A DNA stretch of 64,000 bases from Okeania sp. KiyG1 (GTDB taxonomy: Bacteria > Cyanobacteriota > Cyanobacteriia > Cyanobacteriales > Microcoleaceae). Shown piece by piece: positions 39,448-56,714 of this stretch. A program made the position numbers and the translations under genes. Each line of letters begins with the position of its first letter. The first letter of the stretch is position 1. The DNA is taken from positions 28,461-92,460 of the forward strand of contig NZ_BLZO01000024.1 in assembly GCF_014132355.1 (NCBI RefSeq). Direction: 5' to 3'. Below the pieces are notes generated by a model that saw only the letters and a program-made list of their open reading frames with translations, did not search any database and was not told where the DNA came from.

Positions 39448-42002
39448 TTAATCCACTCTTTCTAATTGCCAGAGAAGTTAAACTAAGCAATTCTGTCACC
39501 AGAAATGCTCGTCTCCAAAACCGGACGTGAGACTTTCACCTCATCCGGCTCCTCAGTGATTTGGCTCTAATCAAAATGAGCACCTCTACCACTATTTTTA
39601 GCAGTTTTCAGAGCGTAGCAATGTCTATGCAATTCAATATTATTCAAGACTTTCCCTTTCTTAAGTTGAATGAAAGTCCTTTTGCCTACTCCAATAAAAC
39701 CAGTCCTTCTTAACATTCTCCTGTCTAACAATAGGAACTTCTGTGTGTTTCAACAGCTTCACTCGGCTGCCATCCTCATAACTACACGAAAATTCCTTTC
39801 TGTTTTCCCCAGAATGCCAATACTTTTGAGAAATCCAGTCATTATTTTTGTTAGAATGTCTTCTTCTTGCCCAACGCCAGAGTTTTTGGTACACTAAATG
39901 ATCCAAATCCCTAAAAGCTTTCTTACTCACCACAGCCGAATAATAGTTGACCCAATCCCGAATAATAGGATTAAGCCTTCTAATTAAAACAACTTGTGGT
40001 GCAGACTTATGTCCATCTATAACCTCAGCGATTTGACGATAATGACTCTTCATGCTCTGGTCACTTGGTTTGACCTCAGTTTTAAAACCAAGCTTACTTT
40101 GATTTTTGCCCACCTCAAATTGTCTGATGTTGAACCCCAAGAAATCAAACCCTGGTTTTTCTCCACCATACCCATATAAAGTATGAACTATTCTTGTTTC
40201 ACTTGGTTTTAACTCCAACCCCATTTCAGACAACCACTCTCCAACCTTTACGAGGCATTTTTGAACCACATCTATATCTTTGTGAGCGATCGCCAAACTA
40301 CTACCATAGCGAACCAAACCCAAGTATTTACTCCTATCCACCCTTGATACCTCATACCCGCTTTCCACAGATTGAAAATCAAAAATTTCAGTATACTCCT
40401 TGATTTGCTCCTCCATACCATGAAGAGCCACATTTGCCAGAAATGAAGAAATAACCCCACCCCTTGCCATCTGCTCCTCCGTTGGAAACAACTCTTCCCC
40501 ATCCATCACACCAGTCTTCAACCAAGCTTTGATTTTTCGACGCAATGTAGGATAAGTACCCAGCCTTTCCAATAATAGTTGGTAGTTAATACCCTCAGAA
40601 GACTTAGCAATGTCAGCCTCAAGCACATACTTAGGCTCCAGCTTGACAAAACCAAAAATTGCTTCTACGGCATCTTGAAGCGATCGCCCCGGCCTAAACC
40701 CATAACAACTAGATTCAAAAATAGCCTCCCATTCTGGCTCCAGAGCCATCTTGACAAGTATTTGTAGAGCGTAGTCCTCCATAGTGCCTCTCCTAGACTT
40801 AACCTTGCCAGTTATGTCCAAAGTTTCAGCCAAAGCAAACAGCTTTTCCGAAGACAAAATTTCCTTACTCTGGTTATCTTGAATCACCCCACGCACTGCC
40901 AATAACTTAGCGTACCAGGACTTCAGCAAAGTTTTTTGGGGCTTACGAAATGCAACATAATCACGACTCTCAGAGGCTCTGTAGATTCTGTCCTGTAACT
41001 TAAAGACGTGACGCTCAACCTTTAACCAGTTAATATCGCGCCATTCTTCCCATTCCGCCGTAGTCTTCAAACTCGTATTGGACATTTCTATCACCTAATC
41101 AAACTCTACATTCCAAATCACCGTGTGTCCGTCAGCCTATCCCATTACATTAAATAAGGGCCTTTGCTTCTGACACAATCCTTCCCAATCAAACATCCGG
41201 TTAGCACCTACTTGATTCAGTTATCAGTTATCAGTTATCAGTTATCAGTTATCCATACCTATAGCTGAAGGCAGAAGGGTGAGCATAGCTGAAAGCTGAT
41301 TGCTGAAAGCTGATTGCTAAATAATTCAAGAGTTTTTCATGGGTTACTTCGTTCCAAATGACCTTATTTATATACCTTTAGGATGATGCTTTACGCCGGG
41401 TTTACGGGAAGTGCTTATTAGTCGAACCAAATCTCGCTAACTCCCTATCCTGTGCCTTTTGGCTCCAGTGTCACAGCTTTTTTCACTGGTTGAAAATTAC
41501 GACGCTTCAATTACATCTTCGCTTTTCACTATCCAATGGGTATTGTGCTTGATGGAAACTCTTTTAAGCTAAGAGCTTTACCACCTTTTTACCCCGCTTT
41601 ACGGATTGGTCGCTACTCGCTACCGTAGGGGTAATGCTGTCAACCCTGCACCTGGGCGGAAGGAATCTCACCTCCAAGGTCATTTAGTTATAAGGCTTAT
41701 GGCCTTACTCTACTCACGTCTTAACCTGATGGCCTTAACTTTTAGCAGAAACGAATCGCACTTTGGTTTCCTTCACGACGTACTCTAGATACTACCCAGT
41801 TCCGCCAGACCCAATGGTCTCCACGACTGGTGACAGCACTGGCATTGATGTCCATTAAATCTGCTAACTCTGAGCTAGTGATTAGATAGCCTTTACTGGC
41901 CACTTCATCAGCTATGTGTAAGGTTTCTATTAAGTTGCGCAGTTGCCCAACCCTCTGCTCCCTGGGCATATTTTCGAGTAATTCGTTATTTGTGTCATTC
42001 AT
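39448..42002 (-). CDS. Small conserved protein interrupted by a group II intron (exons 42002-41762 and 39476-39448)
   Basis: Exon 1 (241 nt, from ATG 42002) encodes a protein with ITSSELADLMDINASAVTSR and GDHWVWRNWVVSRVRREGNQ. Reading on into the intron gives a stop after six nonsense residues. Exon 2 (29 nt) supplies LWQLERVD and a stop. Joined, 270 nt make 89 residues ending NQILWQLERVD, which agrees in my memory with a small cyanobacterial family having a helix-turn-helix-like start. The function is unknown; DNA or RNA binding is possible. Intact exons imply that splicing still occurs. Confidence 0.78.
39517..39551 (-). ncRNA. Group II intron domain V
   Basis: The minus strand reads 'gagccggatgaggtgaaa' then 'gtctcacgtccggtttt', a 35-nt hairpin with the canonical GAGCCG start, internal bulge and GAAA-like loop. 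This is the catalytic core of the ribozyme. Confidence 0.9.
39661..41085 (-). CDS. ltrA: Group II intron maturase with inactive reverse-transcriptase motif (YGSS)
   Basis: The 474-residue product aligns with intron-encoded proteins: AEWEEWRDINWLKVERHVFK and SWYAKLLAVRGVIQDNQSKE (RT-0/1), SSCYGFRPGRSLQDAVEAIF (RT-2), EADIAKSSEGINYQLL (RT-3), ARGGVISSFLANVALHGMEE (RT-4), KPGFDFLGFNIRQF (RT-7) and maturase domain X (LNPIIRDWVNYYSAVVSKKA). The catalytic YADD is replaced by Tyr260-Gly-Ser-Ser263 (40297-40308). RT-3 has SSE for the usual CFD and RT-4 has ARGGVISS for PQGGVISP. No HNH domain follows. It should bind and help splice the intron but not reverse-transcribe it. ATG 41085 follows AGGTGA. 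Confidence 0.9.
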   Translation of the reverse strand: MSNTSLKTTAEWEEWRDINWLKVERHVFKLQDRIYRASESRDYVAFRKPQKTLLKSWYAKLLAVRGVIQDNQSKEILSSEKLFALAETLDITGKVKSRRGTMEDYALQILVKMALEPEWEAIFESSCYGFRPGRSLQDAVEAIFGFVKLEPKYVLEADIAKSSEGINYQLLLERLGTYPTLRRKIKAWLKTGVMDGEELFPTEEQMARGGVISSFLANVALHGMEEQIKEYTEIFDFQSVESGYEVSRVDRSKYLGLVRYGSSLAIAHKDIDVVQKCLVKVGEWLSEMGLELKPSETRIVHTLYGYGGEKPGFDFLGFNIRQFEVGKNQSKLGFKTEVKPSDQSMKSHYRQIAEVIDGHKSAPQVVLIRRLNPIIRDWVNYYSAVVSKKAFRDLDHLVYQKLWRWARRRHSNKNNDWISQKYWHSGENRKEFSCSYEDGSRVKLLKHTEVPIVRQENVKKDWFYWSRQKDFHST

Positions 42003-42565: not shown

Positions 42566-43901
42566 CTATTGCGCTCGCCAGAGGTCGGACTCTCCCGTAG
42601 CTTTTGGGTTTCCCCCAGGTTCCGAGTGCCCCTCGGTACTGTTTACTATTGCCCCCAACATTTCTAATCCTTTTGCCAAAATGTTCTTTGCTGCGTTATG
42701 GTCACGGTCTGCTATATAACCACAATGAGGACATTTGTGAGTCCTAACAGACAACGATTTTTTAACAGTTTGACCACAAGAAGAACAATTTTGAGATGTG
42801 AAATGTGGAGGTACTGCTATGCAAGCAATTCCATGGGACTTAGCATAATATTCCAGCCATTCGGTGAACTGATACCAACTTGCATCAGATATAGATTTAG
42901 CTAAGTGATGATTTTTAACTAGGTTAGCAATCTTCAAATCCTCGTAGACTACCAAGTCGTGAGATTGGATTAACGCCCTTGCAGTCTTTACTGCATGGTC
43001 TTTACGCAGTAAAGCTGATTTTGAGATGCTGCCTGGCTAATTGCTTTCTGGCTTTATGGTAATTATTTGACTGAGGTTTCTTACCTTTCTCGTGGCGACG
43101 CGATACTTTCCGTTGTAGCTTTTTTAGTCGTTTTTCTGACTTTTTTAAATACTTAGGATTTTCTACAACATCACCATTACTATCAGTATAGAAAGCGTTT
43201 AAACCTAAATCTATTCCTACTACATTGCTTTGAAAATTATGAGTTTCTTTTCTCTCTACATTTACTAAGAATTGACAATAATAACCATCAGCTCGTCTCA
43301 CAATTCTTACACGACTTATTTGTTGCTCTGAATACCAGACTAAATCGCGACTTGTCCATAGTTCAAATACACCTGCTTTAAAACCATCTTTAAACTCAAT
43401 TTTCTTTCTGTCTGGAGATAGTTTATAACCAGTTGTTTTATACTCTATTGAACGAGTAAACTTTTTGAATTTAGGATAACCCTTTTTACCTGGTAATTTC
43501 AGTCTACAATTTTTGTAGAATCGTTGTATTGATTGCCATGCTCTATCGGCTGATGCTTGTCTTGCTTGAGAATTTAACTTTTTAGCCCAAGGAAAATTGG
43601 CATTTTTGGCTAGCACAGAACAAAGCTTTTGTAAGTCGTTGCGTTTGACATCTTTATTATCCATCCAATAGCGCAAACAACTGTTTCTGATGAATTGACC
43701 TGTGAGAATCATTTCATCTAAAACTTTGTACTGATTTTGACTACCTTTTAATTTGGCCTCAATTACTAGCACTCGCGCTTTGTTAATTCCTTGACTAAAT
43801 TGATTATTATAACTAAATTTACCTAAAATGTATACTGGATAAACTATTAATATTTGTGTATAATTATGACATCGAATCATAATTATACACGTATCATTCA
43901 T
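42566..43901 (-). pseudogene. tnpB: IS200/IS605 family TnpB (OrfB), frameshifted
   Basis: Frames 43002-43901 and 42566-42955 form one TnpB. Deleting one base of the T4 run at 43019-43022 restores HLKSALLRKDHAVKTARALI into VVYEDLKIANLVKN. All three RuvC-like acidic residues are present (GIDLGLNAFYTD, YEDLKI, DRDHNAAKN), and the zinc ribbon is complete (NCSSCG and CPHCG). The N-terminus is uncertain: typical family sequence starts around VLVIEAKLKGSQNQYKVLDE, while residues upstream look like read-through from the left end. No tnpA in the window. Confidence 0.85.
43857..43890. repeat. Left-end hairpin of the tnpB element
   Basis: 'gtgtataattatga' and 'tcataattatacac' are perfect inverted repeats with a six-base loop. 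It lies at the 5' side of tnpB where IS200/IS605 left ends have their transposase-binding hairpin. Confidence 0.6.
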
Positions 43902-44314
43902 CCAGGCGCGCTCATTAAAAATTATAGCGCTGGCCTTCTGATGCGTTTAGGTAATATTATCTTTGCGTTCCCTATTTTTTAGTTGACTAAAAAATCATGC
44001 TTATATGCGAACTACCCATAATACTTTTACTATATCAAAATTTTTTCTGGTGCGCAACCTTAATTTAATCCGCTACGCCATTTTACTGGAGTGCTGAACA
44101 GAATGAATGACTTTAACAATGGCTGTCTATAAATTTTTAAGAATTAATAAAAATTAAGTCTGCTAAAATAACTAAAAGTTAAGTTATTGTAGGAAAATAC
44201 TGGCAATTTTTGGTAACAATAATTTATAGCAGTTTGTGTACTTGAAAACTAGACAAGATAAAGAAAAAAAATCTGACTGCTCATGGGCGATATGCTAATT
44301 GCTATATATGTTTT

Positions 44315-44478
44315 ATTGAAAAAGTGGGGAAACTCCGGTGCAAGTCCGGGGCTGTGCGGCAACTGTAAATCGACAAAAATAGTTAATAGAAAAAATCAAT
44401 AACTACTTACTAATTAATCGATCAGCCAGAACACCTACTTGTCACTTGTAAACCCTAACTTCCTGCCTGACACGGGAA
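44315..44478 (+). promoter_or_regulatory. Cobalamin riboswitch
   Basis: 'gaaactccggtgcaagtccg' with 'gggctgtgcggcaactgtaa' and, about 80 bases later, 'cagccagaacacctac' (B12 box region) are hallmark AdoCbl riboswitch segments. It lies in the leader of cbiX and should lower its expression when cobalamin is plentiful. The 400 bases before it (43902-44309) hold no gene. Confidence 0.92.
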
Positions 44479-44488
44479 AGGATAATAA

Positions 44489-45532
44489 ATGAAATATTCA
44501 ACTCAAAACTCCGAAATCAAAGCACAAGAAATTATAACTTCAACAGAAGAAATAAGTAGTATCTCTACAAGTCATAAATTACCTCCATTACCACTACAAA
44601 GACCTTTATTATTGATAGGTCACGGGACACGAGATGCTGATGGAAAAGAAACTTTTTTAGATTTTGTTGCAGCTTATCAAAATTTAGATAAATCTCGACC
44701 CGTAATACCTTGTTTTCTAGAATTAACAGGTCCAACTATTCAAGAAGGAGTAGATAAATGTGTAGAACAAGGTTACACAGAATTATCTGCTTTACCAATT
44801 TTATTATTTGCAGCTCGCCACAATAAATTTGATATTACCAATGAATTAGACCGGGCAAGACAACGACATCCTCAAATAAAATTCCATTATGGGCGACATT
44901 TTGGTATTACTCCCAAGATTTTAGAATTGTGGCGATCGCGTCTTACAGAATTAGAAGAAACTAATTTTAATCCCTCCGAAACAGTCTTATTATTTGTAGG
45001 GCGAGGTTCCAGTGATCCTGATGCTAATGGAGATGTTTATAAACTAGCTCGAATGTTATGGGAAGGCAGTGGGTATCTAACAGTTGAAACTTGTTTTATT
45101 GGCATTACTCACCCTCGTTTAGAAGAAGGTTTTCGGCGAGCTAGATTATATAAACCGAAGCGTATTATTGTTTTGCCCTACTTTTTATTTACCGGAGTTT
45201 TAGTCAAGAAAATATTTGATATTACAGCCCAACAACAAGAACAATATCCAGATATTTCTATGACTTGTCTGCCAGAAATGGGAGCGCATCCAATATTATT
45301 AGAATTATTGCGAGAAAGAGAAATAGAGACACAGTTAGGAGAAGTACAAATGAACTGTGAAATGTGTAAGTTTCGGTTAGCTGCTGTTACTAATGGAGAA
45401 CATTCTCATAGTCATGGTCATCATCATCACGACCATTCTCACTCACATCATAGTCACGACCATAATCATTCTGTAGTTGACCCCTACGCTCAACCACAAC
45501 AATATCATCAACGTATTTGGCAAGTTCCTTAG
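44489..45532 (+). CDS. cbiX: Sirohydrochlorin cobaltochelatase CbiX (long form)
   Basis: CbiX inserts Co2+ into sirohydrochlorin, an early step of anaerobic corrin synthesis. The 347-residue product has two tandem CbiX domains: [20 protein letters not shown] with metal-site His about residue 45 and [13 protein letters not shown], then [20 protein letters not shown] and [12 protein letters not shown]. The C-terminal region has MNCEMC, which in long CbiX proteins belongs to a 4Fe-4S site, and a His-rich tract ([19 protein letters not shown]) suited to metal storage. The riboswitch directly upstream confirms the role. Confidence 0.95.
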
Positions 45533-56446: not shown

Positions 56447-56552
56447 GTGCGACTCGTTGGCTGAAAAAAATGAAAGCTTCACGTCCGGGTCTGTCATGCA
56501 GCTCCCCTGGAGGGGACAGACGAGTCGAGTAGGGTAACTTACCTACCTTAGA
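56447..56552 (+). mobile_element. Internally deleted group II intron relic
   Basis: GTGCGACTCGTTGGCTG matches a group II intron 5' end. It is joined directly to 'tgaaagcttcacgtccggg', which resembles the second half of domain V, and to a hairpin-rich segment ending 'gagtagggtaacttacctac', like domain VI and the 3' end. No maturase or domain I remains. The call is tentative. Confidence 0.45.
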
Positions 56553-56714
56553 TTAGCCTACACTTTTACCGAAAAATTCAGGTATAAAGCCTCTCCATTC
56601 ATGGAGAAAAAAGGAAAAAAATCCTTTTATCCAATGCTCTTAATTTACAAAAAGAGGTAATTCTAAATTCTTAATTCTAAATTCTTAATTCTTGAATATT
56701 CTCCTTAATTTTTA

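Follow-up and report, generated by a model that had tools for sequence, protein, structure and literature searches.

The window analysed in the present study, a stretch of 64,000 nucleotides from Okeania sp. KiyG1, contains a group II intron whose encoded protein has lost the catalytic motif of its reverse transcriptase (RT) but keeps the splicing domain X. The intron interrupts a conserved cyanobacterial gene, and the same insertion with the same loss occurs in three genera, where the protein frame has stayed open. The intron is very likely domesticated and no longer mobile, and its protein a maturase devoted to splicing alone, the function being assigned from comparative data.

The intron and its host gene

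The intron occupies positions 39477..41761 of the minus strand (2285 nt), starts with GTGCG and ends with AC. It has the GUGYG/AY ends and the domain V hairpin of group II introns, together with exons that join in frame and an EBS1-IBS1 pairing. Domain V (39514..39554, minus strand) matches RF04357 with 62.4 bits and RF00029 with 56.7 bits. Domain VI (39477..39513, minus strand) contains a candidate branch-point A, located 7 nt upstream of the 3' end, the bulged A being read from the alignment by eye. The probable IBS1, AACCAAA, comprises the last 7 nt of exon 1 (41762..41768, minus strand) and is identical in the 14 introns printed. Its 7-bp complement TTTGGTT, the probable EBS1, lies at intron position 331 (41425..41431, minus strand), and this motif is present in all 14 orthologous introns; by a hand estimate, a given 7-mer is met by chance in 668 nt of one sequence with a probability of about 4%. 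Mean column identity of domains V and VI is 97% among 13 introns, and none of 26 base pairs is changed on both sides, a degree of conservation too high for a covariation test of the structure.

The host gene encodes a conserved cyanobacterial protein of 89 aa with an RNase HI-associated domain. Exon 1 lies at 41762..42002 and exon 2 at 39448..39476, both on the minus strand. The intron splits an Ile codon after its first base, so that exon 2 encodes (I)LWQLERVD and the stop codon; the same exon 2 is found in the published Trichodesmium gene. The joined exons are in frame, and the protein ends with RREGNQ followed, from the split codon on, by ILWQLERVD. The gene is near-universal in cyanobacteria; of the 291 genomes searched in the order, 275 have a homologue of the host protein. 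Within the family, 21 of the 23 genomes searched gave a match (G004 and G053 did not). The match ends at residue 81 in 12 of the 23, all from Okeania, from a genus known from a 'Trichodesmium' MAG (g4) or from a Trichodesmium-type genus (g11); it reaches residue 89 in genera g2, g3, g6, g7, g8 and g9 and falls into two pieces in G045 (g10). No uninterrupted second copy of the host gene was found in the 14 intron-bearing genomes, each of which has a single match at E <= 1e-8.

The intron-encoded protein

The open reading frame of the intron-encoded protein (IEP) lies on the minus strand, which the earlier note had not given, and extends over 39661-41094 if started from GTG or 39661-41085 if started from ATG (474 aa). 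The ATG appears to be the better start, because a stop codon stands right before it (VI*MSNTS) in three of the five Trichodesmium-type orthologues examined. Numbered from this ATG, residues Tyr260-Gly-Ser-Ser263 (40297..40308, minus strand) replace the catalytic YADD, as the earlier note had read. The other sequences it quoted were also found: EADIAKSSEG in RT-3 (40591..40620, minus strand; DADIAKCFDR in intact relatives), ARGGVISS in RT-4 (40444..40467, minus strand; PQGGVISP in intact relatives) and LNPIIRDWVNYYSAVV in domain X. A Pfam search recognised RVT_N (E 6.6e-18), RVT_1 (3.9e-17) and the domain X family GIIM, PF08388 (2.5e-22; 39817..40053, minus strand). It returned no endonuclease match, in agreement with the reported absence of an HNH endonuclease; the IEP lacks the C-terminal part in which, by eye, an HNH-like pattern is visible in all six relatives printed.

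The description of the remainder of the protein as full length holds for the open frame and the intact domain X but not for RT-1. There, a stretch of 17 residues, VWIPKPGxxEKRPLGIP, is missing between residues 99 and 100 (40788..40789, minus strand), as found by alignment. All 17 non-orthologous relatives in alignment A1 have RT-1, and its text pattern was matched in 60 of 74 loci of wider relatives. The other 14 loci comprise six with a variant, two interrupted by inserts (L098 and L112), one where the pattern is read through stops (L167) and five with nothing similar. Besides this deletion, the host gene and insertion site, the conservation across genera and the published orthologous intron had escaped the earlier note.

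An AlphaFold2 model of the IEP built with 26 sequences has a mean pLDDT of 74. Seven of the eight ten-residue blocks of domain X score 88-94 and one scores 71, while residues 191-210, before and into RT-4, score 49 and 39. The best PDB matches of the model are the group II intron ribonucleoproteins (RNPs) 8fli and 6me0 (E 7e-21 and 1e-19), and 6me0_C is also among the best matches by sequence. The maturase of these RNPs, from Thermosynechococcus elongatus, is the closest solved relative by both sequence and fold; its RYADDF is intact, whereas the IEP of the window has YGSS.

Orthologues and the probable loss of the polymerase

The same intron sits at the same host site in 14 of 14 sampled genomes, namely six Okeania, one g4 and seven g11 genomes. 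In 12 of them both splice junctions were located by script; G059 is assigned by the 5' flank and a 3' match, and G056 by the 5' flank alone. At E <= 1e-150 the IEP itself was detected in 12 of 62 genomes of the family (6/6 Okeania, 1/1 g4 and 5/7 g11). In the remaining g11 genomes, G061 has an open IEP frame with a small insert, and the frame of G056 is broken at an ambiguous assembly stretch. G055 is T. erythraeum or its like, since its intron length (5124 nt) and its host protein are the same as in PMC4649490, and from this genome we infer that g11 as a whole is Trichodesmium.

None of the 14 site orthologues has YxDD. The motif reads YGSS in six, YGGN in four, YAGN in two, YASN in one and YAGD in one, G057, which retains the second Asp. 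The catalytic Asp of RT-3, one of three, survives in 10 of 12 aligned orthologues, a point against the interpretation preferred below. The five aligned g11 proteins have lost the QGG of RT-4. When 99 proteins were placed in a tree without the catalytic columns, the site orthologues among them, 12 in number, formed one clade with an SH-aLRT value of 100. A further seven sequences that lack YxDD are dispersed in this tree: five stand alone as single tips, while L123 and L133 share an unresolved trio with one intact sequence. The trees were built by a 'quick' method from sequences with at least 330 aligned residues, identical ones being entered once.

Since all 14 orthologues share the RT-1 deletion, a single loss of the polymerase in their common ancestor is probable. 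The simplest history would be one insertion and one polymerase loss before the three genera parted; the intron may also have been transferred between them.

Proposed function and action on other introns

In the preferred interpretation, the intron would be of group IIB type, domesticated and immobile within the conserved host gene. The maturase would be translated from the precursor RNA, attach to the intron that encodes it by way of its N-terminal RT region and domain X, and aid folding and splicing of the ribozyme, which would allow the nine C-terminal residues of the host protein to be synthesised; the maturase would no longer make cDNA. Thus the protein presumably promotes splicing, acts mainly in cis and is devoid of polymerase activity. 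Mutants of other IEPs in YADD still splice. A splicing assay described in the accessible part of PMC12590461 includes a YAAA mutant as its control for absent RT activity.

The earlier note suggested that the protein may also act in trans on other introns, such as one related to a relic at 56447. One alternative is a general maturase of the kind that MatK is considered to be, which besides its own intron would splice, in trans, introns without an open reading frame (ORF) elsewhere in the genome; it is unlikely, though the best placed of those considered. Such introns are available: the genome has 43 domain V hits, and of the 30 loci fetched and compared with the 5' region of the window intron, 11 have no IEP match within 1.5 kb upstream. 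PMC4649490, in the part of the text available, also cites work that showed trans-acting splicing factors for ORF-less Trichodesmium introns in E. coli. However, the 5' regions of the 11 ORF-less introns are unlike that of the window intron, with no match longer than 28 nt after masking of low-complexity sequence; unmasked, one of them (L074) has a 47-nt simple-repeat match. Among protein-bearing loci, L090 has a core match of 74 nt with the window intron, and the matches of L062 are repeat-like. Furthermore, the 3' ends of the ORF-less introns (for example CATCGACTATAAC, CATCGACTACATC, CATCGACTCTATC) resemble by eye that of the C152-C154 intron (CATCGACTCTAAC) and not that of the window intron (GCTTAGTTTAAC), and the C152-C154 intron carries a YADD protein. 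The relic itself (56447-56560, plus strand) is a group II intron remnant of about 110 nt with the start GTGCGACTCG, a domain V fragment and a domain VI-like end; examined by eye, it is without the core needed for splicing. The suggested trans action thus found no support.

Selection on the protein

The ratio dN/dS was computed by NG86 with a codon bootstrap for six Okeania and five Trichodesmium-type sequences. In Okeania it is 0.30 for the whole protein (95% interval 0.21-0.41), 0.46 for RT0-2 (0.23-1.05), 0.45 for the palm (0.28-0.81) and 0.11 for domain X (0.03-0.26). The Trichodesmium-type values are 0.41 for the whole protein (0.32-0.52), 0.47 for the palm (0.31-0.72) and 0.38 for domain X (0.20-0.77). 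A ratio near 1 across the frame, named beforehand as an outcome that would speak against a retained function, was not seen. In 14 polymerase-intact control pairs the ratios are 0.09-0.19 (whole), 0.09-0.23 (palm) and 0.06-0.25 (domain X); all these pairs exceed the Okeania set in dS, which can lower their ratio. Sixteen pairs had been listed, and L113/L122 (motif of L122 damaged) and L130/L143 (saturated) were left out.

Judging from these substitution patterns, the IEP is under purifying selection that is relaxed relative to mobile-type relatives, most clearly in the palm. The palm/X distance ratio of between-genus pairs of polymerase-dead proteins has a mean of 1.61 (1.03-2.21, n=41; ratio of means without motif columns 1.51) and that of intact pairs of like X distance a mean of 0.82 (sd 0.23, maximum 1.46, n=123), the ranges overlapping at 1.03-1.46 and the pairs not being independent. 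In the Trichodesmium-type genomes, domain X is hardly tighter than the palm (the intervals overlap) and looser than in the intact pairs. The whole protein may therefore be drifting there, which counts against a simple story.

A slowly decaying pseudogene, in an intron that splices by itself and leaves the protein unused, would account for part of these data. The polymerase motifs vary between species, as do the C-termini; both whole-protein ratios exceed the range of the intact pairs, themselves more diverged than the Okeania set; and the ribozyme parts examined look intact, so splicing without the protein might be possible. Nevertheless, this explanation is improbable. All 13 gap-free orthologues over the three genera lack an internal stop or frameshift, their C-terminal ends being variable. 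In neutral simulations on a star tree, which overstates independence, all frames remained open in none of 2000 runs for either genus, and single tips remained open in 6% (Okeania) and 0.07% (g11) of cases. The upper 95% bounds of the whole-protein ratios also argue against it. The open frames and the Okeania ratios of the whole protein and domain X support the proposal of the earlier note that polymerase function was lost while the splicing protein was retained.

Even less probable is RT-independent mobility, in which the RNP would reverse-splice and host polymerases or the YADD protein of another intron would supply the cDNA. The intron RNA ends and the EBS1/IBS1 pairing are intact, and other YADD proteins exist in the genome, but the intron occupies a single site inherited by descent and the next best match to the IEP in the genome is 54% identical. 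An assembly or sequencing artefact, for which the draft state of the genomes and the broken frame of G056 might speak, is contradicted by the agreement of YGSS between the window and five further Okeania records and by the other substitutions that orthologues carry at these residues, and can practically be dismissed.

Comparison with known introns

The closest described counterpart is Tr.e.I7, the outer (host) intron of the T. erythraeum twintron in Tery_4732 (Pfreundt and Hess 2015, PMC4649490, main text). It shares with the window intron the host gene, the codon and the intron ends, and it encodes an orthologous protein of 449 aa. According to the same source, its splicing in vivo was demonstrated by RT-PCR and northern blot. 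In contrast to Tr.e.I7, the window intron has no inner intron: no second intron protein was found within it or in any of the six Okeania genomes. Among the seven g11 genomes, the orthologous intron harbours a nested second intron protein in four (G055, G059, G060 and G061; loci L233-L236), where the host intron is split at about position 151; the nesting is absent from the other three and from g4. We take the nested intron to be the published inner intron, Tr.e.I8, and the twintron is probably younger than the polymerase loss.

The available text of PMC4649490 describes the insertion as confined to Trichodesmium and the twintron as stably kept in the genus. Both statements need amending on the genomes compared here, because the intron is present in all six Okeania and the inner intron in only four of seven g11 genomes. 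The main text of that paper has 0 hits for the terms YADD and Okeania, and its available text makes no mention of a polymerase loss. In the open-licence literature no report was found of the polymerase loss of this intron or of its presence in Okeania; the accessible parts of PMC9950141 and PMC8919778 are silent on both points.

As stated in the available part of a 2015 review (PMC4424553), organellar introns include numerous IEPs that have lost RT motifs, and O.i.I2 of Oceanobacillus iheyensis, inserted in radC, was the only known degenerate IEP of bacteria. By its description there, O.i.I2 resembles the IEP of the window in being bacterial, lying in a protein gene, and lacking YADD and other RT motifs while having no stops. 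It differs in being of ML class and a single intron, whereas here an orthologous set over three genera and selection tests are at hand. The window case is thus a new and better documented example of a kind that is known but rare, and the comparative evidence for it is unusually complete.

The earlier note aptly likened the protein to organellar maturases. MatK of the plastid trnK intron, as described in the accessible literature, and other organellar maturases have likewise lost RT motifs and kept domain X, in introns fixed in an important gene; MatK differs in being organellar, belonging to a group IIA intron, being more degenerate and being proposed to serve many introns. The passage from a mobile selfish intron to a captive that needs a splicing helper is a central open step in models for spliceosomal introns. 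Organelles represent the end state, and bacterial cases are very rare, the above review, in its available part, naming one. The present series, ordered by phylogeny and undated, runs from relatives with YADD and an HNH-like region through the shared loss of RT-1 to active sites that have decayed in divergent ways while the splicing domain was retained, and it includes cultured T. erythraeum, whose intron is already known to splice. It is conceivable, though rather doubtful, that this is a bacterial counterpart of early MatK evolution: mobility would have been lost once, in an ancestor shared by several genera of marine cyanobacteria, and the host would have retained the protein as a splicing factor controlling a conserved RNase HI-associated gene, possibly en route to serving other introns.

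Other features of the genome and the window

Ten other IEP genes show a different alteration, in which one and the same short sequence (TATGAGTCTYGACTT, +1 nt) has taken the place of the codons for YADD (TATGCTGATGACTTT or similar). The upstream frame is thereby shifted out and a new ATG frame (MSLDFVIL...) is opened at the active site. Four carriers belong to the genome of the window (C130:42154, C118:152787, C22:5760 and C88:1700), and the other loci are L246, L247, L249, L251, L253 and L255. When 389 genomes of the order were searched for this pattern, it was located at 11 places in four genomes, three of Okeania and one of g11 (L259). In trees of 16 copies, 10 with the replacement and 6 without, clustering of the trait does not exceed that of shuffled labels, the six trait-free copies coming from the genome of the window only and one branch being long. 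The replacement may reflect a repeated site-specific event, gene conversion or a functional split protein; its novelty possibly exceeds that of the main finding. Another IEP of the same genome (L038, C47:2168-3493) has RYADNF and a damaged RT-3 and forms a single long tip in the tree.

In the window, the host gene is adjoined by a TnpB-like transposon protein, named by eye, in two ORFs (42566-43901, minus strand). A cobalamin riboswitch (RF00174) was detected at 44291-44456 on the plus strand with 32.5 bits at a cut-off of 31.5, and the ORF that follows it (44489-45532) resembles by eye a CbiX-type cobaltochelatase with a His-rich tail.
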